Source: Aquabacterium sp. (GTDB lineage Bacteria; Pseudomonadota; Gammaproteobacteria; Burkholderiales; Burkholderiaceae_C). From it: 59,905 nt of DNA. The DNA lies in assembly GCA_023150345.1 (NCBI GenBank), contig JAKLLB010000009.1, positions 12,129 to 72,033 on the forward strand, given 5' to 3'. The notes below the pieces were generated by a model. The model did no database searches, was not told where the DNA came from, and saw only the letters and a program-made list of their open reading frames with translations. Numbering within the stretch: the stretch's first letter is position 1; each line of letters opens with the position of its first letter. Below, piece by piece: positions 12,223 to 21,735 of the stretch. Both the position numbers and the translations under genes were made by a program.

Positions 12223-13407
12223 TTGAGCGCCGCTGGCCCGGGATTTCGCGCCACCGTGGCGGCCATGGCGGTCGGGCAGTTGCTGTGCTGGGCGGCCCTC
12301 TACTACGCCTTCTCGGCGTTCGTGCTGCCGATGCAGCAGGCGCTGGGCTGGAGCAAGGCCACCTTGATGGGCGCCTTCACGCTTGGTCTGGCCGTCTGGG
12401 GTGCCACGACCTATGCCGCCGGGGCTGCCATCGACCGCGGGCTCGGGCGACGGGTCATGACGGCTGGCGCCGCGATGGCCGGTGTGGGGTTCGGGGTGTG
12501 GTCGCAGGTGCACGAGCCGTGGATGCTCTATGGTGCCTGGGCCATCCTGGGCGCATCGATGGCCCTGACACTGTACGAGCCGGCCTTCAACGTGCTCACC
12601 AAGCGCTATCCCGAGCGCTACACGCAAGGCATAACGGCGCTGACGCTGGTGGGAGGGTTCGCCAGCACCCTGTGCTTTCCGGCTGTGGCAATGCTGCAGG
12701 AAGCTCTGGGCTGGAGGGCGGCACTGGCCGTCATCGGCGCGGTGTTGCTGGTCGGTGTGGCGCCGTTGCATGCCTGGGCGCTGCGAGGGCCGGCCATTGT
12801 GGCGGCCCGCGTGGAGCCGGCGGCTGGCTCCGAATCGACCCTGCACGACGCGCTTCGCGAACGCTCGTTCTGGCTGCTCACGGCCTGCTTCACGATGTAC
12901 GCGTTCTGCAGCGCCGCGTTGTGGGCCCATGTGATGCCGGCGTTCGATGCCAAGGGCCTGTCGCGCACCCATGCCCTGGCGGTCGTGATGACGATCGGCC
13001 CGGCACAGGTCGGTGCGCGACTGGTCTTTGCCGCGCTCGGCCGGCGATGGTCGCTGCGGGCACTGGGATGCGTGGTACTGGCGGGGCTGCCGACATCGCT
13101 GCTGGTCTTCGCGATGGGCCGTACCGTGGCGGCACTGATGGTCTTTGCCGTGCTCTTCGGCACCGCCAATGGGCTCGTGACCATTGTGCGCGGCGGGCTG
13201 CTGCCGCAGTACTTCGGGCGTGCGCACATCGGCCGCATCAGCGGCGCGATGTCTGCGCTGGGGCTGATGTCGCGCTCCGCCGCCCCGCTGGTGGCGGCAT
13301 GGCTGCTGCTGGTGCTGCCGGGCTACGACGAACTGCTGCTGGCGCTGGGTGCGCTGGCGGCGTTGGCCGTGGTGGCCTTCTGGCGCGCTCGGCCGCCCAC
13401 CCGGTGA
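12223..13407 (+). CDS. Major facilitator superfamily transporter
   Basis: A protein of about 394 residues with twelve hydrophobic helices, starting with AAMAVGQLLCWAALYYAFSA. The loop between helices 2 and 3 carries the MFS motif-A region (AIDRGLGRRVMTAG). The central loop is short, and the second half (LRERSFWLLTACFTMYAF) is the typical start of the C-terminal bundle. The fold matches the monocarboxylate-porter/oxalate-formate antiporter-like group. No ATG lies near the conserved start: TTG 12223 has GGAG nine bases upstream, with GTG 12208 and ATG 12112 as alternatives. It is divergent from the acyl-CoA dehydrogenase pair, so carboxylate import is plausible but unproven. Confidence 0.85.
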   Translation: MSAAGPGFRATVAAMAVGQLLCWAALYYAFSAFVLPMQQALGWSKATLMGAFTLGLAVWGATTYAAGAAIDRGLGRRVMTAGAAMAGVGFGVWSQVHEPWMLYGAWAILGASMALTLYEPAFNVLTKRYPERYTQGITALTLVGGFASTLCFPAVAMLQEALGWRAALAVIGAVLLVGVAPLHAWALRGPAIVAARVEPAAGSESTLHDALRERSFWLLTACFTMYAFCSAALWAHVMPAFDAKGLSRTHALAVVMTIGPAQVGARLVFAALGRRWSLRALGCVVLAGLPTSLLVFAMGRTVAALMVFAVLFGTANGLVTIVRGGLLPQYFGRAHIGRISGAMSALGLMSRSAAPLVAAWLLLVLPGYDELLLALGALAALAVVAFWRARPPTR

Positions 13408-13413
13408 ACGGGG

Positions 13414-13428
13414 GGCGGCGCTGCCGCC
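13414..13428. terminator. Short hairpin between convergent MFS and binding-protein genes
   Basis: A perfect 6-bp stem GGCGGC/GCCGCC with loop GCT sits in the 51-bp gap between two convergent stops. There is no T-tract, so a terminator role is only suggested by position. Confidence 0.3.
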
Positions 13429-13458
13429 GTTGCCACCAGCGACGGGCAGCGGTTCGGG

Positions 13459-14580
13459 TCAGTTCATGGGTGTCTTCTTCCCGTCCTTGAACGAATAGAG
13501 CGTCATGTCCGGGCTGCGCAACTCACCGTTGGATTCAAATGCGATCGTGCCGGTCACCCCCTTGTGCTGCATGGCCTGAAGCTGCGGGAGGTAGTCCTTC
13601 GGCTTGGCCGATCCGGCCAGCGCCATGGCCTCGACGAGCACCATTGCGGCGTCGTACGCGTAGGGCGAGTAGACCTGGAACTGCCCGGGGAACCGCTTGT
13701 CATAGCGCTCCTTCCAGGCCTTGCCGCCCGGCATCTTCTCGATCGATGTCCCGCCCTCGGCGCACACCACATTGGCAACGACCGCGGCACTGCCGGCCAA
13801 CTCGACGATCTTGTTCGTGCAAATGCCGTCGCCGCCCAGGTACTTGACACCCGCCATACCCAGTTGCGTCATCTGCCGCAGCATGGGCCCGGCCTGTGGA
13901 TCCATGCCACCGAAGAAGACCGCTTCGGCGCCCGAGCTCTTCACGCTGGTGAGGACAGCGGAGAAGTCCACCGACTTGTCGGACGTGAATTCCTCGCGAA
14001 CGACCTGGATGCCCTTGCCCAGGGCGGTCTTCTTGAACACCTCGGCCAGACCCTGCCCATAGGCGGTGCGGTCGTCGATGACGGCCACCTTGCGTACCTT
14101 CAGCACGTTGGCGGCGTAGATGGCCAGGCCCGCGCCGAGCGCGTTGTCGTTGGCGATGATGCGGAACGTGGTCTTGTAGCCGTTCTGCGTCAGCTTCGGA
14201 TTGGTGGCCGCCGGCGTGATGTGCGGGATGCCGCAGTCGTTGTAGACGCGCGAGGCGGGGATCGTCGTGCCCGAGTTCAGGTGGCCGACGACGCCGTTGA
14301 CCTTCTGGTCGCACATCTTCTGCGCCGCGGCGGTGCCTTGGCGCGGGTCGGCGGCGTCGTCTTCGGCGGCAAGCTCGAACTTGACCTTCTTGCCGCCGAT
14401 CGTGATGCCCTTGGCGTTGAGGTCGTCGATCGCCATGCGCACGCCGTTCTCGTTGTCCTTGCCGTAGTGGCCTTGCGGACCGGTGATCGGGGCAACATGC
14501 CCGATCTTGACGACTTCCTGCGCCAGCGCGGGCAGGGCCGCCGCGGCGGCGGCGACGGCGATGAGGCTGTGTTTGAACAT
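13459..14580 (-). CDS. Periplasmic Leu/Ile/Val-type (LivK-like) substrate-binding protein
   Basis: A 373-residue binding protein of the branched-chain amino-acid ABC family. The signal peptide MFKHSLIAVAAAAAALPALA ends at an AxA site. The mature start EVVKIGHVAPITGPQGHYGKD and the AIDDLNAKG segment are family hallmarks. HLNSGTTIPASRVYNDCGIP and ATNPKLT form part of the ligand pocket. A GAGGAG ribosome site lies 7 bases before ATG 14580. No livH/M/G/F permease or ATPase genes are in the window, so it is an orphan binding protein. It follows the OsmC gene by 82 bp on the same strand and could be the last gene of that cluster or have its own promoter. Confidence 0.93.
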   Translation of the reverse strand: MFKHSLIAVAAAAAALPALAQEVVKIGHVAPITGPQGHYGKDNENGVRMAIDDLNAKGITIGGKKVKFELAAEDDAADPRQGTAAAQKMCDQKVNGVVGHLNSGTTIPASRVYNDCGIPHITPAATNPKLTQNGYKTTFRIIANDNALGAGLAIYAANVLKVRKVAVIDDRTAYGQGLAEVFKKTALGKGIQVVREEFTSDKSVDFSAVLTSVKSSGAEAVFFGGMDPQAGPMLRQMTQLGMAGVKYLGGDGICTNKIVELAGSAAVVANVVCAEGGTSIEKMPGGKAWKERYDKRFPGQFQVYSPYAYDAAMVLVEAMALAGSAKPKDYLPQLQAMQHKGVTGTIAFESNGELRSPDMTLYSFKDGKKTPMN

Positions 14581-14662
14581 GTGGGGTCTCCTCGGATGAC
14601 GGACGGTCGGGGGTGGGGGGTGTGCCCGGCGGGCACGGTCGGAAGAAGGGGCGGGCGCGCGG

Positions 14663-15202
14663 CTACTCGGCGACCAGCTCGGCGCTGATCGCCACGCCGC
14701 GGGCCAGCGACATCGCGTTCGGGCTGTGCGCGACCGCCTTGTCCAGCAGATCCTGGTAGCGGACGCGGTCGCCGTCGCCGCTGACGCGCAGGCGGAAGCG
14801 GACGTTCTTCAGCGGCACCGCGGCCGGCTCGGCCAGGCCGAAGAAGCCGGCCAGATCCAGCTCGGCCTCGACGGTGAGCTGCAGCGACTCGAGCTGGATG
14901 CCCTGCACCGCGGCGCCGACGGTGAAGCCCACCATGATGCAGGCGCCGACGCCGGACAGCAGGTGCTCCTGCGGCGAAGCGCCGTGGTTGCCGCCGCCGA
15001 GCTGGCGCGGCTCGTCGATCAGCCACTGGAACGAGCGGTTGACGCGGTGCGCACCGAACTGCATCGGCAGCGTGCCGACCTGCGTGCGCGTGCCGTTCTG
15101 CCAGTTCAGATCGACGCCGTAGCGCACGATGCCCTGCGCGGGCTCGCGCCGGATCTCGTCGACCAGCTCGGAGACGGCCGCGAGCGGAATGCCATTGCGC
15201 AT
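14663..15202 (-). CDS. OsmC-like protein with one of two redox cysteines missing
   Basis: A 179-residue protein of the OsmC/Ohr fold. The conserved core NHGASPQEHLLSGVGACIMVGF holds the first cysteine (C88). At the second family position, normally a CP dipeptide, the sequence is AHSPNAMSL, with Ser160 in place of Cys. Canonical OsmC needs both cysteines to reduce organic hydroperoxides, so this protein probably does another thiol or carrier task; that is inference. The start at 15202 is supported by AAGGAG upstream (positions 15211-15216). It lies 29 bp after the PLP-enzyme gene and probably belongs to its operon. Confidence 0.88.
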   Translation of the reverse strand: MRNGIPLAAVSELVDEIRREPAQGIVRYGVDLNWQNGTRTQVGTLPMQFGAHRVNRSFQWLIDEPRQLGGGNHGASPQEHLLSGVGACIMVGFTVGAAVQGIQLESLQLTVEAELDLAGFFGLAEPAAVPLKNVRFRLRVSGDGDRVRYQDLLDKAVAHSPNAMSLARGVAISAELVAE

Positions 15203-15231
15203 GTGATAACTCTCCTTGGGTGTGGGTGCAG

Positions 15232-16590
15232 TCAGGCGCCGAAGGCGCACTCGATGGCCTGGGCCAGGTCGGTGAGCAGGTCGCGCGGGTCTTCGATGCC
15301 GACCGACAGGCGCACGCAACCGGGGCGGATGCCCATGCGCTCGCGCTGGTGCGCGGTGAATGCGGCGTGCGAGGTGTTGAACGGCAGGCTGACCAGCGTC
15401 TCGACGCCGCCCAGGCTGGTGGCCTTCTTGGCCAGTTGCAGGTGTTCGAGCAGCGCCACCGCATGCGCGTCGGTGCCGTCGAGCTCGAAGCACACCATGC
15501 CGGTCGGGTTGGCCAGCAGCCGGCGCGCCAGTGCGTGATCGGGATGCGAGGGCAGGCCGGCGAAGTAGACACGCCGCACCCGCGGGTGCTGCTCGAGCCA
15601 GGCCGCGACGATCGCCGCGCCCTCGGCGTGCGCCCGCATGCGCAGCGGCAGCGTCTTCAGCCCGCGCTCGAGCATGAAGCACGCGTGCGGGTCCAGGCTG
15701 CCGCCGTAGGCGAGGCGGCGCGGCCAGATCGCGTCGAGCAGCTTGCGCGGGCCGGCCGCGACGCCGGCAATCAGGTCCGAGTGCCCGTTCAGGTACTTCG
15801 ACGCCGAGTGCACGACGACATCGACGCCCCAGCCCAGCGGCTTCATCGCGATCGGCGTGGCGAAGGTGGCGTCGATCACGACGCGCAGCCCGTGCTTGCG
15901 CGCGATCGCGACGATGCCGGGGATGTCGACGATCTTCAGCAGCGGATTGGTCAGCGCCTCGAAGAACAGCACCTGGGTCTCGGGGCGGATGGCCGCCTCG
16001 ATCGCCGCGAGGTCGCGCGGGTCGACGTAGCTCGCGCTCATCCCCAGCGTCGGCAGCTCGCCTTGCAGCAACGCATAGGTGCCGCCGTACAGCTCGCTGG
16101 AGGCCACGACGTGCGCGCCGCGATCGAGCAGCGCCAGCAGCGTCGCGCTGATCGCGGCCATCCCGGAGCTGAACACCAGCGCCGATTCGGCGCCTTCGAG
16201 CGCGGCGAGCTTCTCCTCGACGGCCCACTGGCTCGGATTGCCGTAGCGGGTGTAGATGAAGCGGTCGCGCGCGTAGCCTTCCTCGATCGACCGGTACTGG
16301 TCCGCTTCGAGCAGGAAGGTCGAGCTCTGGTAGATCGGCGTGCCCACCGCGCCGGTGGCCGCGTCGTCCTGGGTGCCGGCGTGCACGGCCAGCGTGGCCG
16401 GCTGCAGACCGGCCCAGTGCGGCGTGCCGCGGAAGGGGCCGGGTTGGCGCGTGCGCGTCAGCGTGTCGGCCCAGCGGGTGTGCTCGTCGCGGGACGGGCC
16501 GCTGGCGGGGTCGCCGCGCACCGCGGCCGGCTGGTTCGGGTTCAGCAATTCGGTCCTTTCGTCGGTCGGGAAGGGGGCCGGCAGGCGCAT
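15232..16590 (-). CDS. Cys/Met-metabolism PLP-dependent enzyme (cystathionine gamma-synthase/lyase family)
   Basis: A fold-type I PLP enzyme acting on sulfur amino acids or O-acyl-homoserine. With ATG 16590 it has 452 residues. Visible are the phosphate-binding Y113/R115 in YTRYGNPS, SSGMAAI, the PLP-stacking tyrosine in LYGGTY (167-172), D240 in IDATFATP and the Schiff-base lysine K265 in SASKYLNGHSD. Methionine gamma-lyases have LYGC at the stacking site; this has LYGG, as in cystathionine lyases/synthases and sulfhydrylases, so the reaction is open. TTG 16548 (438 residues) has AAAGGA five bases upstream and may be the true start. It sits between the TonB receptor and the OsmC gene. Confidence 0.9.
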   Translation of the reverse strand: MRLPAPFPTDERTELLNPNQPAAVRGDPASGPSRDEHTRWADTLTRTRQPGPFRGTPHWAGLQPATLAVHAGTQDDAATGAVGTPIYQSSTFLLEADQYRSIEEGYARDRFIYTRYGNPSQWAVEEKLAALEGAESALVFSSGMAAISATLLALLDRGAHVVASSELYGGTYALLQGELPTLGMSASYVDPRDLAAIEAAIRPETQVLFFEALTNPLLKIVDIPGIVAIARKHGLRVVIDATFATPIAMKPLGWGVDVVVHSASKYLNGHSDLIAGVAAGPRKLLDAIWPRRLAYGGSLDPHACFMLERGLKTLPLRMRAHAEGAAIVAAWLEQHPRVRRVYFAGLPSHPDHALARRLLANPTGMVCFELDGTDAHAVALLEHLQLAKKATSLGGVETLVSLPFNTSHAAFTAHQRERMGIRPGCVRLSVGIEDPRDLLTDLAQAIECAFGA

Positions 16591-16648
16591 CGCCCGCCGG
16601 CCCGCGGCAAGCGCTCGTGGCGCCTGCCTGAACTTGCGCGAGTGGCGC

Positions 16649-19195
16649 TTACTTGAACTGATAGTTGACGCGCAGCCAGATCTGCCGGCCATGCGGGTCG
16701 TCGCTGACGTTGACCCCGGTGCCGGCGAAGTTCAGCTCGTACGGCGGCTTGCGGTCGGAGATGTTCTTGATGCCCGCGCCCAGGCGCAGCGACTTCCACC
16801 CGCTGTACTGCACGCCCAGGTCCACGGTGTCGTGCGCGCCGACCCACAGGCTCTCGTCGCGGTTCTGGAAGTACGCGCGGAAGCGCGAGCGGTGGTTCAA
16901 GTGCAGGCTCGCGCCCCACGGCCCCATCGTCCAGCCCAGGGTGCTGACGTTGCGGTAGCGCGGGTTGCCGTACTCGCCGGCGACTTCCATCGCGCTGCCC
17001 TGCGCGTCGGTGCGGCTGACGCGGTCCAGGTAGGTCGACACCGACGACACGGTGAGCTGCCCCCAGCCGGCCAGCGCGACGCGGCCGCTGAGGTCCAGGT
17101 CGACCCCGCGCACCAGCGTCTGGCCGATGTTGTAGGGCTCGTAGACCCACACCGGGATGCCTTCGGCGCCCTTCGGAATGATGCTGTTGGGCGTCTCGGG
17201 CGGGCCGGGGAAGAAGATCTGGTTCGTGCGCTTGACGCTCCAGGCGTCGACGCCGACGGTCCAGTCGCGCACGACCTCGACGGCGACGCCGAGGTTCAGG
17301 TTCTTCGACTTCTCGGGCTTGAGGTCCGGCGCATTGGCGATGCGCACCTTGATGTTGTCGCCGTTCTGGTCCTGGCTCCAGTATTCGTACTCGCCAAACA
17401 TCTCGGGGATCGACGGCGCGCGGAAGCCCGTGCCGTACGAGCCGCGCAGCATCAGCGCGCGCACCGGCTGCCAGCGCAGCGCGAGCTTCGGGTTCGCCGT
17501 CGTGCCGAAACCGTCGTAATGGTCGGCGCGCAGCGCGGCCTGCACCTCCAGAGTCTTCAGCACCGGCAGCGACAGCTCGCCGTACACCGCGATCTGGTCG
17601 CGCCCGCCGGTGATCGGGCGGCGCACCGCGCCGCCGACGACGTCGCCGGCGATCGTGCGCTCGTCGGAGCCGTCGGACAGCTTCTCGCGCCGGATGTCGG
17701 CGCCCAGCGCCAGCATCGCCGCGCCGCCGGGCAGCGCCCACAGCTCGCGCGAGGCCTTCGCATCGGCGAAGGTGAAGCGGCTGTCGCCGTAGCGGTTGGA
17801 CTGCGCGCTGATCGCCGCGACGTCCGCCGCGCTCAGCGTGCCGAACACGTTCATGCTGTCCACGCGCGCCCAGGCCGCGGCGCTGTCGAGGTAGCCGGTG
17901 CCGATCATCGTGGTCTTGGTGCGCGCGCTGCCCAGCGCGGCTTCCCAGTCCCAGCCGCCCATCTCGCCGCTGACGCCGGCGACGATGCGGCTGGAGTCGC
18001 TGGTGACCTCGCGCCGGCGCGGCCCCATCTCCCAGAACAGCCGGCGCAGATAGACGCCGTTGCCCGCGCTGTTGCCGAACTCGCCGGGGTTGAAGTAGTT
18101 GAACGAGAGCTGGTAGGTCGACGACGGGATGAAGTCCATCTCCATCACGCTGCGGCTGGCCGAGACTTCGGCGAACGCCGTCATCGTCGGGCCCAGCCGC
18201 ACCGTGGCGCGGCCGAAGCCGCTGGTGCGCTGCTGCGCCGGCACGTAGGAGATGTCCTCGCTGTAGCTGTGCACGCAGGTGCCGGCGGCGTTCAGCGCGT
18301 CGCGGCCGCGATCGCAACTGCCGTTGGCGACGTACAGGCGGCCATTCCAGACGTTGCCGGTGTTCGAGTAGCTCGTCAGCGTGTTGAACGCCGGCGTGGC
18401 CACGCCCCAGGTCTTGCCGGCATAGCCGATGTCGCCGGTCTGATAACCCGCGGCCAGCGCGGCATCGGTCTGGTTGCGCCAGGTCGACGGCCGCGCGACC
18501 TGCATCACGCCGTCGCGCTGGTAATGGTCGAGCACGCCCATCACGTTGAAGCCGCTGCCGGCCAGCTCGCCCCAGCCGGCGGTGACGGTGACGTTGCGGT
18601 GGTCCAGGTCGTGGTAGCTCAGCGAGCGCCCGCCGGAGACCGCGACTTCCACGCCCTGGTACGAGCGGCGCAGGATGAAGTTGACGACGCCGCCGATCGC
18701 GTCGGTGCCGTAGATCGCCGACGCGCCTTCCTTCAGCACTTCGACGCGCTCGATCGCGGCGAACGGGATCGCGTTCAGGTCGACGAAGGTCGACGAATCG
18801 GTGAAGCCGTAGTACGAGACCCGCCGGCCGTTCAGCAGCACCAGCGTCGCGTTGGTTCCGAGCCCGCGCAGCGAGGCGCCGTTGGCTCCGGGCACCAGCG
18901 AGTTGGTCTCGACGTCGCTGACCTTGCCGTCGCCGTTCTGCGTGATCTTGTCCAGCAGTTGCGCGGCCGAGGTCACGCCGGCGGCCTCGATCTCCTTGGC
19001 CGTGATCACCTGGATGGCCTGCGGGCCCTCGGCGGTCAGACGCTTGATGTTGGAACCGGTGACCTCGACCTTCTGCGGAGCGTCGGCGCCCTGCGCGAGC
19101 GAGAGCATCGGCACGGCCGCGGCGACCGCGGCGGCACTGGCCAGCATTCGACCGAGGGGTGGGCACTGGATTCGCCGTTGTAGATCACGTGTCAT
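16649..19195 (-). CDS. TonB-dependent outer-membrane receptor
   Basis: An 848-residue ligand-gated beta-barrel importer energised by TonB. The signal peptide spans about residues 1-35 (MLASAAAVAAAVPMLSLAQG). The plug domain has the TonB-box-like segment QKVEVTGSNIKR, then PQAIQVITAKEIEAAG, SLRGLGTNATLVLLNGRRV and IERVEVLKEGASAIYGTDAIGGVVNFI, all standard plug motifs. The barrel follows to the C terminus WLRVNYQFK. GGAG lies 7 bases before ATG 19195. It is the first gene of a left-reading cluster (receptor, PLP enzyme, OsmC, possibly LivK-like), divergent from the TyrR-like regulator and downstream of a sigma-54-type promoter. Ligand unknown; no FecR or anti-sigma N-terminal extension. Confidence 0.95.
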   Translation of the reverse strand: MTRDLQRRIQCPPLGRMLASAAAVAAAVPMLSLAQGADAPQKVEVTGSNIKRLTAEGPQAIQVITAKEIEAAGVTSAAQLLDKITQNGDGKVSDVETNSLVPGANGASLRGLGTNATLVLLNGRRVSYYGFTDSSTFVDLNAIPFAAIERVEVLKEGASAIYGTDAIGGVVNFILRRSYQGVEVAVSGGRSLSYHDLDHRNVTVTAGWGELAGSGFNVMGVLDHYQRDGVMQVARPSTWRNQTDAALAAGYQTGDIGYAGKTWGVATPAFNTLTSYSNTGNVWNGRLYVANGSCDRGRDALNAAGTCVHSYSEDISYVPAQQRTSGFGRATVRLGPTMTAFAEVSASRSVMEMDFIPSSTYQLSFNYFNPGEFGNSAGNGVYLRRLFWEMGPRRREVTSDSSRIVAGVSGEMGGWDWEAALGSARTKTTMIGTGYLDSAAAWARVDSMNVFGTLSAADVAAISAQSNRYGDSRFTFADAKASRELWALPGGAAMLALGADIRREKLSDGSDERTIAGDVVGGAVRRPITGGRDQIAVYGELSLPVLKTLEVQAALRADHYDGFGTTANPKLALRWQPVRALMLRGSYGTGFRAPSIPEMFGEYEYWSQDQNGDNIKVRIANAPDLKPEKSKNLNLGVAVEVVRDWTVGVDAWSVKRTNQIFFPGPPETPNSIIPKGAEGIPVWVYEPYNIGQTLVRGVDLDLSGRVALAGWGQLTVSSVSTYLDRVSRTDAQGSAMEVAGEYGNPRYRNVSTLGWTMGPWGASLHLNHRSRFRAYFQNRDESLWVGAHDTVDLGVQYSGWKSLRLGAGIKNISDRKPPYELNFAGTGVNVSDDPHGRQIWLRVNYQFK

Positions 19196-19314
19196 TCATG
19201 TCTCCGAGTGTGGGCGTGCGATCGAGCGGAGGAGGTCGCTTTGAAGCTGCCGCGAGGCCCTCGCCCCTGCAAACAACTGCAGCCACCAGGCCGCGTTGGA
19301 CGACTGTTGCGAAC

Positions 19315-19329
19315 GCATGCGTCGTGCCA
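19315..19329 (-). promoter_or_regulatory. Predicted sigma-54 (-24/-12) promoter for the TonB receptor cluster
   Basis: Read on the minus strand the sequence is TGGCACGACGCATGC. It matches TGGCAC-N5-TTGC with one mismatch (A for T) and has the invariant GG-N10-GC spacing. Transcription would start near 19303, leaving a leader of about 108 bases before the receptor ATG at 19195. The divergent neighbour encodes a sigma-54-type activator with a GAFSGA loop, which supports the call. Confidence 0.7.
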
Positions 19330-19380
19330 GACCTCGGCCGCCTTTGAAATCAATGGGTTGCGTGGCTTGTGCACGACGCG

Positions 19381-19398
19381 TGTAAGCAAATCGATACA
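19381..19398. promoter_or_regulatory. TyrR-box-like site 1 (promoter-proximal)
   Basis: TGTAAG-CAAATC-GATACA compares with the E. coli TyrR box TGTAAA-N6-TTTACA: one mismatch in the left half and two in the right, same 18-bp frame. Its centre lies about 87 bp upstream of the predicted sigma-54 start at 19303. Confidence 0.5.
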
Positions 19399-19431
19399 CA
19401 TCTGGAACGAAGCAGATACATCGTCGATGCT

Positions 19432-19449
19432 TGTATGCATGCGCATACA
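19432..19449. promoter_or_regulatory. TyrR-box-like site 2 overlapping the regulator's own 5' region
   Basis: TGTATG-CATGCG-CATACA has perfectly inverted 6-bp half-sites in the TyrR-box frame. Its centre is 51 bp (about five helical turns) from site 1 and about 138 bp upstream of the predicted sigma-54 start. It ends 11 bp before the regulator's ATG, a position suited to autoregulation as well as to enhancer binding. Confidence 0.55.
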
Positions 19450-19460
19450 CTGTCGGCACG

Positions 19461-21110
19461 ATGCAACTGCGCCTGATCACCGAAGACCGTCTGGGCATCA
19501 CCCATGAGGTGTTGCAGCTCATTGCCGCACGCCAGCTCGACCTCGCCACGATGGAGATGGGGCTGCACAACATCTATCTGAACGTGCCTGACCTGCGGCC
19601 AGAGGAGCGCGCTGAAGTCGAGGCAGCGCTGTTGGCAGTGCCAGGCGTCAAGCGCGTGGAAGCGGCGCAACTCATGCCCGGCGAGGCCAGGCGCCTGCAA
19701 CTGGATGTGTTGCTCGGAACGTTGCCGCAGCCGGTGCTGGTGATCGGCAGCGATGGCCGCGTCGCCATGGCCAGTGCGGCCGCCCGACGTGCCGAAGGTG
19801 CGGGCGAGGCCGGGTGCATCGGCCGGTCCATCGACGACGTGCTCGGGCGCGAAGGGCTCTGGCGGGAACTGATGGAGAGCGGGGCACGCACGGGCGAGCA
19901 CGAGGTCACCTACGCGGGCAGCGCGTGGGTCCTCGACGCCAGCCCCTTGATCGACCCAGGCACGCGGCGGCTGACCGGTGCCGTGTTGACGCTGCAAGAC
20001 GCGTCATGGTTGGGTGAGCAGGTGGCGCGCCTGCAGCGCAAGCGACCGCCGGAAGGCTTCGAGGCGCTGCTGGGCGACTCGCAGTCAATGCGCCAGCTGC
20101 GCGCTCGAGCGCAGCGCGTGGCGGTGGTCGATGCGCCCCTGATGATCCTGGGCGAGACCGGCACCGGAAAGGAATTGGTCGCGCGCGCCTGCCACGAAGC
20201 CAGTGCACGCAGAAGTGCGCCCTTCCTGGCGCTCAATGCGGCTGCCTTGCCCGAGAGCCTGGCCGAGAGCGAGCTCTTCGGGTACGCACCGGGTGCGTTC
20301 TCCGGTGCGCAACGTGGCGGCAAGCCGGGTTTGCTCGAGATGGCCGGCAGCGGCACGGTTTTTCTCGACGAGATCGGTGAGATGTCGCCCTATCTGCAGA
20401 CCAAGCTGCTTCGGTTCCTCAACGACGGAACGTTTCGTCGCATCGGCGGCGATCGGGAGTTGCGCGCCGACGTACGCATACTCAGCGCCACTCACCGCGA
20501 CCTGGAGTCGATGGTGGAGCGGGCCGAGTTCCGCGAGGACCTGTACTACCGGCTCAACGTGTTGAACCTGCACGTGGCACCGCTGCGCGAGCGCGGCGAT
20601 GACATCCTGATGCTGGCCGAGCACTTCCTGGCGCGGGCTTCCCAGCAGGTTCGCCGTCGCGTTCCGCGCCTGACGCCGGCGGCGCGGCAGGCGCTGCGCG
20701 AGGCACCGTGGCCCGGAAACGTGCGTCAGTTGCAGAACGTGATCTTCCGCGCGGTGACGCTCACCGAGTCACAGTCGCTGGACGTGGCCGACTTGGGGCT
20801 GCACAGCGAGCGGCGGCGCAGTGCTGTCGCGCCACCGGATGAGATGGTTGCACAGACCTGGGCCGATGCCATGGCGGGATTCGAACGCGACCTGCTGGTG
20901 CGGCTCTACGATCAGTACCCGAGCAGCCGCAAGCTGGCGGTTCGGCTGGGCCTGTCGCATGCAGCGGTTGCCAAGCGGCTTCGGCGCTATGGCATTTCGA
21001 CGGTTGCGCGCGGGCGGGGCGCCGTCGTCGACACGGCGACGGCCCTCGCCGAGCCTAGCGCTTCTCCAGGCGCATCACATCTCCGTCGCGCCGCATCGAA
21101 AAACGGCTGA
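19461..21110 (+). CDS. TyrR-family enhancer-binding regulator (ACT-PAS-AAA+-HTH) with GAFSGA loop
   Basis: A 549-residue regulator colinear with E. coli TyrR: ACT domain (1-70, LRLITEDRLGITHEVLQL), PAS domain (about 78-180), AAA+ domain with Walker A GETGTGKE (231-238) and Walker B VFLDEIGEM (300-308), and a C-terminal helix-turn-helix (483-512) starting YDQYPSSRKLAVRLGLSH. E. coli TyrR lacks the sigma-54-contacting GAFTGA loop; here GAFSGA is present at 278-283, so sigma-54 activation is expected. The ACT domain suggests an amino-acid effector. It is divergent from the TonB receptor cluster. The last 56 bp overlap the convergent protease gene, so its final residues are antisense-encoded. Confidence 0.93.
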   Translation: MQLRLITEDRLGITHEVLQLIAARQLDLATMEMGLHNIYLNVPDLRPEERAEVEAALLAVPGVKRVEAAQLMPGEARRLQLDVLLGTLPQPVLVIGSDGRVAMASAAARRAEGAGEAGCIGRSIDDVLGREGLWRELMESGARTGEHEVTYAGSAWVLDASPLIDPGTRRLTGAVLTLQDASWLGEQVARLQRKRPPEGFEALLGDSQSMRQLRARAQRVAVVDAPLMILGETGTGKELVARACHEASARRSAPFLALNAAALPESLAESELFGYAPGAFSGAQRGGKPGLLEMAGSGTVFLDEIGEMSPYLQTKLLRFLNDGTFRRIGGDRELRADVRILSATHRDLESMVERAEFREDLYYRLNVLNLHVAPLRERGDDILMLAEHFLARASQQVRRRVPRLTPAARQALREAPWPGNVRQLQNVIFRAVTLTESQSLDVADLGLHSERRRSAVAPPDEMVAQTWADAMAGFERDLLVRLYDQYPSSRKLAVRLGLSHAAVAKRLRRYGISTVARGRGAVVDTATALAEPSASPGASHLRRAASKNG

Positions 21111-21735
21111 GAAAGCTGTTGCCCAGCAGCACGATGGGCATTTCGGAGGGCACGACGACGGCATCGACGTTGTAGACCTCGACATCGCCGACGCGCACCG
21201 AGTTGAGGTTGACCGCGTGCACGGGCACGACACCGCCGGCTGTCTGGGTCAGGCCGCGGCGGCCGCGTTTCCAGTCGACACCGATGCGCTGGGCTTCGCT
21301 CTGACTCATGGCCACCACCGTGGCGCCCGTGTCGACCATGAACTGCACGGGCTTGCCGTTGATCAGGCCTTGAGTCGTGAAGTGCCCGCCAGGGCCGGCC
21401 GGCAGCACGATCTCGGTGCCGCCGCCACCGCCGCTGGCGCCACCGCCCACGCGAGCCGGGGCCGCGCCCAGGCGCAGCACGCTCACCCGGCCGCCAACCT
21501 CGACCTCCGCCTCACCGTCGCCAAGCCTGCGCAAGGTGACGCCACCGACTGTGCTGCCCACTGCCACCGTATGCGGCTGGCCATTGATGAGCAGGAGGGC
21601 CTTGCTGCTGCCCAGGCTGCCCGACAGGCTCACGCTCTGGGCGGCGACCCCGAATGGGGCCACCAGTGCGATGGCCAGCGCCAGCGCGGACAGGCGCGCG
21701 CTAGTCGCGGAAGTTGTTGAATGCCAGGGGCACAT
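21055..21735 (-). CDS. Exported retropepsin-like aspartic protease (TIGR02281 type)
   Basis: A 226-residue protein with a signal peptide ([21 protein letters not shown]) and a single-chain clan AA protease domain. Visible are [13 protein letters not shown] with the catalytic DTG, the glycine-rich linker [10 protein letters not shown] before it, and [12 protein letters not shown], a family hallmark. The N-terminal half carries a short ligand-like region ([19 protein letters not shown]). I place the start at ATG 21735 because AAGGAGGT lies 5 bases upstream, inside the last codons of yajQ. It thus overlaps yajQ by 35 bp in another frame and is probably translationally coupled to it. Its 3' end overlaps the convergent TyrR-like gene by 56 bp. 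Confidence 0.88.

Follow-up and report, generated by a model that had tools for sequence, protein, structure and literature searches.

PhhR of Pseudomonas is a divergent TyrR-like activator for aromatic amino acids with a reported link to sigma-54, and in Pseudomonas putida the mdeA–mdeB operon combines a methionine γ-lyase with an E1-type 2-oxoacid dehydrogenase. Two other systems are described as pairing a TyrR-like protein with this sigma factor. GcsR of Pseudomonas aeruginosa is a TyrR-like enhancer-binding protein for glycine cleavage that works with sigma-54 (PMC4894688), and in Azospirillum brasilense the dadA mRNA requires TyrR, which carries a GAFTGA loop, with three boxes and a −12/−24 element in the divergent gap (PMC6375630). 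Here, a locus of Aquabacterium sp. is analyzed that lies within a stretch of 59,905 nucleotides (the window; contig JAKLLB010000009.1, positions 12,129–72,033). At this locus a TyrR-family regulator gene is divergent from a TonB receptor gene, and genes for a pyridoxal phosphate (PLP) enzyme of Cys/Met metabolism, an OsmC-like protein and a LivK-like binding protein follow on the receptor strand (Table 1). These genes had been called in a reading made from the letters alone (the sequence-only reading), and on re-analysis with open reading frames and Pfam their coordinates and family matches hold.

The sequence-only reading knew of no described system with this set of genes. For the mechanism, novelty is not supported, since a TyrR-like protein acting with sigma-54 is already known from GcsR and from A. 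brasilense TyrR–dadA (PMC4894688; PMC6375630). GcsR shares with the window the TyrR-like architecture, 18-bp dyad boxes starting with TGTA, an RpoN promoter and a target of the amino-acid-catabolism type (PMC4894688). In contrast, GcsR targets the gcv genes and has the loop GAFTGA, while the window regulator has GAFSGA and faces the divergent receptor/PLP/OsmC run; its neighbors are the receptor, PLP, OsmC and LivK genes, and not those for glycine cleavage. PhhR and the window regulator are likewise both divergent TyrR-like activators, set apart by their target genes. The A. brasilense system and the dadA loci of Burkholderiales have in common with the window a divergent gap, TyrR boxes and a −24/−12 site (PMC6375630). 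They differ in that the annotated neighbors of the window regulator include no dadA (the rest of the genome was not searched) and in that the window regulator forms a clade of its own with that of one relative, genome G233. The mechanism is of a known kind, and what is new is the target set, in which a TonB receptor is combined with a PLP subfamily whose motifs fit neither methionine γ-lyase nor cystathionine γ-lyase. The locus appears to put a known amino-acid-sensing switch to new use and not to be a new kind of switch. Searches of the open-licence PubMed Central literature brought up no recognizable description of a TyrR-like activator controlling a TonB receptor.

The regulator and the promoter layout of its family

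The regulator matches the Pfam families Sigma54_activat (6.3e-64), AAA lid, HTH_50 and PAS, with no separate Pfam ACT match, and reaches 462.7 bits against the NCBIfam TyrR profile over residues 1–514, below the TyrR cut-off of 576. Its predicted architecture is that of TyrR-like sigma-54 enhancer-binding proteins, with a TyrR-type N terminus, an AAA+ sigma-54 domain and a TyrR-type helix-turn-helix. Escherichia coli TyrR, as the sequence-only reading noted, works with sigma-70 and lacks the GAFTGA loop, and the alignment indeed has a gap at the sigma-54 contact loop in that protein, where the window regulator has a loop. GAFSGA is also present at loci L124 (the G233 locus), L182, L019 and L214, and L124 and L182 keep −24/−12 sites. 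The regulator of L028 (L028:10001–11572), a gammaproteobacterial locus, has GAFSSA, yet the promoter it faces is a perfect −24/−12 match. No literature pairing GAFTGA with T86S was found. In a tree, the regulators of the window and G233 group together with support of 100/100, separate from those of the dadA loci; L028, L214, L027, L030 and L032 are flagged as long branches of unsure placement. Ten matches to the activator were obtained in its own genome, the strongest being the regulator itself, and Pseudomonas relatives stand at 53–56%, including L005, in which gcvH and gcvP come after the regulator.

Of 299 sampled genomes of the family, 14, the own genome included, have a strong regulator relative that aligns almost end to end (E ≤ 8.6e-142), the next best match being at 1.7e-75. 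dadA adjoins the regulator in 12 of the 13 other genomes. The thirteenth, G233, has the closest regulator relative (67% identity), and at its locus LivK is divergent from the regulator and a same-family receptor follows, as detected by tblastn. The window and these 13 loci, with seven order or genus loci (L178–L184) and L028, make up a comparison set of 22, other loci of the relative search being left out. First gene calls in the loci, made by length and third-position GC, missed the window OsmC gene; PLP, OsmC, dadA and other genes were therefore retested with tblastn in the related loci, which gave no dadA in L180 and L182, two loci that carry a dadA label in the tree input. The targets are dadA in 17 loci, LivK/receptor in one, PLP–OsmC in one (L028), an indolepyruvate ferredoxin oxidoreductase in one (L182), unrecognized in one (L180), and the window run; among the Burkholderiales loci examined, the regulator is mostly partnered with dadA (17/22).

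The regulator–receptor gap (19196–19460) had been said to hold a near-consensus −24/−12 promoter. The site, TGGCACGACGCATGCG, is present and retains GG-N10-GC, but it has two mismatches, and 19 such sites occur in the window against 15.6 expected (at least 19 in 24 of 100 shuffles), so that it was rejected as stand-alone evidence. What makes the window promoter convincing is that the −24/−12 site and the spacing of an IHF-like element recur across related loci. A target-facing −24/−12 site with at most two mismatches is kept in 21 of the 22 loci, the exception being L180. The sequence-only reading had named non-conservation of this element in orthologous loci as grounds for refutation, and the comparison did not refute it. 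The earlier description had overlooked AATCAATGGGTTG, an exact match to the consensus of integration host factor (IHF), of which WATCAANNNNTTR is the form counted across the 22 loci.

Sigma-54-like sites, defined by at most two mismatches with GG and GC kept, number 75 in the 457,745 bases of the 22 loci, and 22 of them are target-facing (two in L124). WATCAANNNNTTR, with at most one mismatch, is found in one orientation 18–19 bp upstream of 17 of the 22 target-facing sites and of 0 of the 53 others, where about 0.02 would be expected at the background rate. The 17 sites stem from 16 loci, the window included. At gaps of 0–120 bp that orientation gives 22 matches, 17 at 18–19 bp and five at all other gaps, whereas the opposite orientation gives five, none of them at 18–19 bp. 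If the rule is derived from the other 16 sites, an exact match at 18–19 bp would arise in the window by chance with a probability of about 2e-5 at the background rate. The element stands at 29 bp in L125 and L134, and no IHF-like match at 18–19 or 29 bp is seen in L133, L135 and L181. Regulator and dadA are co-directional in L135, and the −24/−12 site sits between them, 30 bp before dadA (L135:9045–9182). In L182 (8019–13466), a GAFSGA regulator is divergent from the indolepyruvate ferredoxin oxidoreductase family gene, with a −24/−12 and an IHF-like site between them, and this gene would be a further target of the TyrR-like family.

The two TyrR-box-like dyads of the gap, which the sequence-only reading had placed at enhancer distance, exceed chance. 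They are the only TGTA-N10-TACA dyads in the window (0.01 expected; two in 0/100 shuffles), and the own genome has 11 in its 4.58 Mb. Eight of the other nine overlap called reading frames, and the nearest −24/−12-like site to the sole intergenic one is about 1.1 kb off. Across the loci, 15 gap regions contain 20 YGTA-N10-TACR dyads, whereas 1000 first-order resamplings gave 0.11 on average and never more than 2; none is present in L131, L135 or the LivK side of L124. Dyad pairs in five dadA loci are spaced at 81–82 bp. The sequence thus shows a regulator that has the sigma-54 contact loop, as GAFSGA, and a divergent gap in which two dyads, an IHF-like site and a −24/−12 element follow the order and spacing conserved in the family, and the window target has the same predicted promoter layout, a −24/−12 site with TGTA-type dyads upstream. 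Sigma-54-type control by a TyrR-like activator, as the sequence-only reading had proposed, is predicted for this locus and is well supported, as 21 of the 22 loci keep a site that faces the target and 16 also have the IHF-like site at 18–19 bp.

The pattern TTGAT-N19/20-TGGCA-N8-GC occurs five times in the own genome, against one in the control, and 27 times over eight genomes, against five, and one of the five is the window promoter. Another of them, a sigma-54-like site with the TTGAT core and the same spacing, stands about 60 bp before a gene for a flocculation-associated PEP-CTERM protein, PepA, in the own genome (L258:1742–2612; G000:C44:35241 onward; 183.8 bits, cut-off 80). PepA-type flocculation genes are RpoN-controlled elsewhere.

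The receptor and the genes downstream

Table 1. Predicted genes and regulatory sites of the locus, in window coordinates
Feature	Position	Strand	Basis
TyrR-like sigma-54 enhancer-binding protein, loop GAFSGA	19461–21110 (ATG 19461)	+	Pfam, NCBIfam TyrR profile, alignment
TonB-dependent receptor	16649–19195	-	Pfam plug and beta-barrel; 40% relative beside closest regulator relative (G233)
Cys/Met-metabolism PLP enzyme, uncharacterized subfamily	15232–~16548	-	Pfam Cys_Met_Meta_PP 2.5e-129; orthologs, motif comparison
OsmC-like protein, one conserved Cys	14663–15202	-	Pfam 5.4e-14; alignment
LivK-like periplasmic binding protein, unit membership doubtful	13459–14580	-	Pfam Peripla_BP_6 1.3e-56
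−24/−12 (sigma-54) promoter-like site TGGCACGACGCATGCG, facing receptor gene	19329–19314	-	Convincing only by comparison
IHF-like site AATCAATGGGTTG, 18 bp upstream of −24	19348–19360	+	Exact consensus match; comparison across loci
TyrR-box-like dyad 1 TGTAAGCAAATCGATACA	19381–19398	.	Chance count and resampling
TyrR-box-like dyad 2 TGTATGCATGCGCATACA, 11 bp before regulator ATG	19432–19449	.	Chance count and resampling

At E ≤ 1e-130 the receptor is present in two of 298 family genomes, the own and G233, and these are also the two that carry this regulator clade in the family sample, the genes being adjacent in both. Such a rare co-occurrence, shared and side by side, is the strongest argument for a link between regulator and receptor. 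The closest solved relatives of the receptor, CirA and BtuB, are distant, and solved structures gave no lead on its cargo. Downstream of the G233 receptor, L124:2487–5429 encodes a 980-aa protein with a urea/amide-type substrate-binding domain and GGDEF/EAL-type domains, and L127 and L136 have similar proteins close to their dadA-type regulators.

The same-strand gaps after the receptor are short (about 100 bp to the PLP gene, 29 bp from PLP to OsmC and 82 bp from OsmC to LivK). The proposed PLP start is a TTG with AAAGGA ahead of it, as read from the sequence. In 13350–21300 there is no match to a sigma-70-like promoter, and terminator-like matches number four (3.5 expected). One is a minus-strand match in the receptor leader (19294–19279), and the other three, plus-strand matches, fall within the LivK gene, so that none on the minus strand lies between receptor and LivK; a run split by a terminator or a sigma-70 promoter was rejected on these grounds. 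A composition break at the locus was also rejected, with GC per kb at 66–72% over 8–26 kb. A near-identical genome, G690, has the same genes at 98–100%, with regulator and receptor on one contig and LivK, OsmC and the part of PLP up to the contig end on another.

Orthologs of the PLP enzyme (62–68%) and of the OsmC-like protein (47–57%) are paired in four other records, from Polaromonas, Sulfitobacter, Roseovarius and L028; of the further OsmC matches, the one examined, in Leisingera, has no PLP ortholog beside it. Among 150 genomes of the family the best other PLP identity is 47%, and among 369 of the class it is 49%; at E ≤ 1e-105 none besides the own protein is found among 299 genomes of the phylum. 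In Polaromonas (L214:1495–9540, plasmid CP087967.1) an Lrp gene is beside the pair. This Lrp gene and the pair, together with another OsmC gene and a gene of the DsbA family, are separated by a few kb from a TyrR-like regulator (50% over residues 1–445). Sulfitobacter, with the pair on a plasmid, and Roseovarius have the order Lrp, methionine γ-lyase (705 bits in Sulfitobacter, cut-off 666), PLP–OsmC and an E1-like protein; PLP–OsmC is thus found beside Lrp on plasmids. In L028 a TyrR-like regulator is divergent, with the perfect −24/−12 site facing the pair, and AceE-type E1 and E2 genes follow. The likeness to mdeA–mdeB consists of these E1 and E2 genes and of the Sulfitobacter E1-like protein, a weaker match than the L028 E1. 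It ends there, as the window PLP enzyme is not a methionine γ-lyase by score or motif and the window run is without an E1 gene.

Assignment of the PLP enzyme to methionine γ-lyase (TIGR01328) was rejected at 374.0 bits against a cut-off of 549.7, with Gly in place of the Cys of LYGCT; all five PLP proteins share LYGGT where methionine γ-lyases have LYGCT. The charged residues E, R and E bind substrate in cystathionine γ-lyase/synthase. At these positions of 4ixs (cystathionine γ-lyase-like) the window enzyme has I, A and T, and assignment to cystathionine γ-lyase/synthase was likewise rejected. Because of these motif differences the enzymes are classed as a separate subfamily by sequence, which probably acts on a side chain that lacks a charged terminus; no characterized member of the subfamily was found. 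OsmC-type proteins are usually thiol-based, and Ohr/OsmC peroxidases have two catalytic cysteines. The OsmC proteins here keep one Cys in all seven aligned rows, with SPN at the second-Cys position; the two-cysteine peroxidase assignment was rejected, while the OsmC fold family match itself holds.

The sequence-only reading had included LivK as a possible member of the set. The gene is there, on the same strand and 82 bp after OsmC, and the G233 LivK is also under a −24/−12 site, but membership is weak, given that 19 of 21 genomes of the genus, the own included, have a copy. The window copy is at 68–71% to most of these and at 53% to the G233 copy, no closer than to other copies in that genome (54–55%), and LivK was rejected as a co-inherited partner. 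In five genomes of the genus and one of another genus, none of 11 other window proteins tested is within 16 kb of LivK, and a crude motif search found no Liv permease genes beside the ~70% copies. LivK may be a resident gene downstream.

Proposed function and rival explanations

The explanation we favor, with somewhat more confidence than doubt, is a sigma-54 switch of the GcsR, PhhR and A. brasilense TyrR kind in which an operon for uptake and breakdown takes the place of the usual target in amino-acid catabolism. The N-terminal part of the regulator would sense an amino acid or related compound, and the regulator would bind the dyads and probably also dampen expression of its own gene. IHF would bend the gap, and ATP hydrolysis would open sigma-54 polymerase at the promoter-like site, giving a single transcript that runs from the receptor gene through those for the PLP enzyme and OsmC and perhaps on to LivK. 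The receptor is predicted to import an amino-acid-like compound, the PLP enzyme to eliminate its side chain, yielding a 2-oxoacid, and OsmC to handle the released thiol or similar product. Several observations weigh against this explanation. G233 has neither PLP nor OsmC beside the regulator, and the receptor occurs together with PLP–OsmC only in the own genome and G690. The −24/−12 match by itself is common in the window, within chance, and TGGCACGACGCATGCG has ATGC at −12. The loop is GAFSGA and not GAFTGA (dadA-locus regulators, 15/17 GAFTGA and 2/17 GAFTGG), the window dyads are 51 bp apart as compared to 81–82 bp in the five dadA loci, and the 17 of 22 for the IHF-like element is a post hoc figure, the spacing having been spotted in the same sequences before counting.

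That the switch covers the receptor gene only, with PLP–OsmC and LivK otherwise controlled and an unrelated cargo such as an iron complex, vitamin or peptide, is unlikely. Such an arrangement would account for the receptor and LivK beside the G233 regulator without PLP or OsmC, for CirA and BtuB as the closest, if distant, solved receptor relatives and for the Lrp gene beside the pair in Polaromonas, Sulfitobacter and Roseovarius. It fits poorly with the short same-strand gaps, with the lack of a sigma-70-like promoter or minus-strand terminator-like site from receptor to LivK, and with L028, in which regulator and perfect −24/−12 directly face PLP–OsmC. Far more improbable is repression or activation through sigma-70 as in E. 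coli TyrR, the −24/−12 match being fortuitous. TyrR-like boxes are common to that protein and such matches are frequent in a GC-rich window, yet the loop deleted in E. coli TyrR is kept here, the −24/−12 and IHF-like sites are conserved at fixed spacing, and 13350–21300 has no sigma-70-like promoter match.

As to the substrate, a thioether or thiol is suggested by analogy from the neighbor genes of PLP–OsmC. The uptake and breakdown of a sulfur amino-acid compound, as proposed in the sequence-only reading, is plausible: an indirect sulfur link stands, the pair following methionine γ-lyase in Sulfitobacter and Roseovarius and preceding 2-oxoacid dehydrogenase E1/E2 genes in L028, while substrate and inducer are what we infer. 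There is a minor but appreciable chance that the PLP substrate is another γ-substituted amino acid and the sulfur theme a mere family resemblance, as the Gly at the methionine γ-lyase Cys, the I/A/T at the 4ixs positions and the lack of a characterized subfamily member would allow; the adjoining methionine γ-lyase in Sulfitobacter and the usual thiol chemistry of OsmC-type proteins argue otherwise. Put together, and only tentatively, an amino-acid-sensing TyrR-like sigma-54 activator would command the TonB-driven import of a compound derived from an amino acid, namely a thioether amino acid in the form of a conjugate, a short peptide or a metal complex. It would also command the degradation of that compound, in which a γ-lyase subfamily not yet described would work with a one-cysteine OsmC partner.

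The −24/−12 site, IHF-like site at 18–19 bp and YGTA-N10-TACR dyads provide a signature for finding targets of the family, and the analysis highlights an uncharacterized PLP–OsmC pair near sulfur amino-acid genes in distant bacteria. If the proposal is true, PLP–OsmC would act as a portable cassette, shifting between control by Lrp and control by TyrR-like regulators, and the TyrR-like family would control import across the outer membrane, adding such uptake to the functions under TyrR-like sigma-54 activators.

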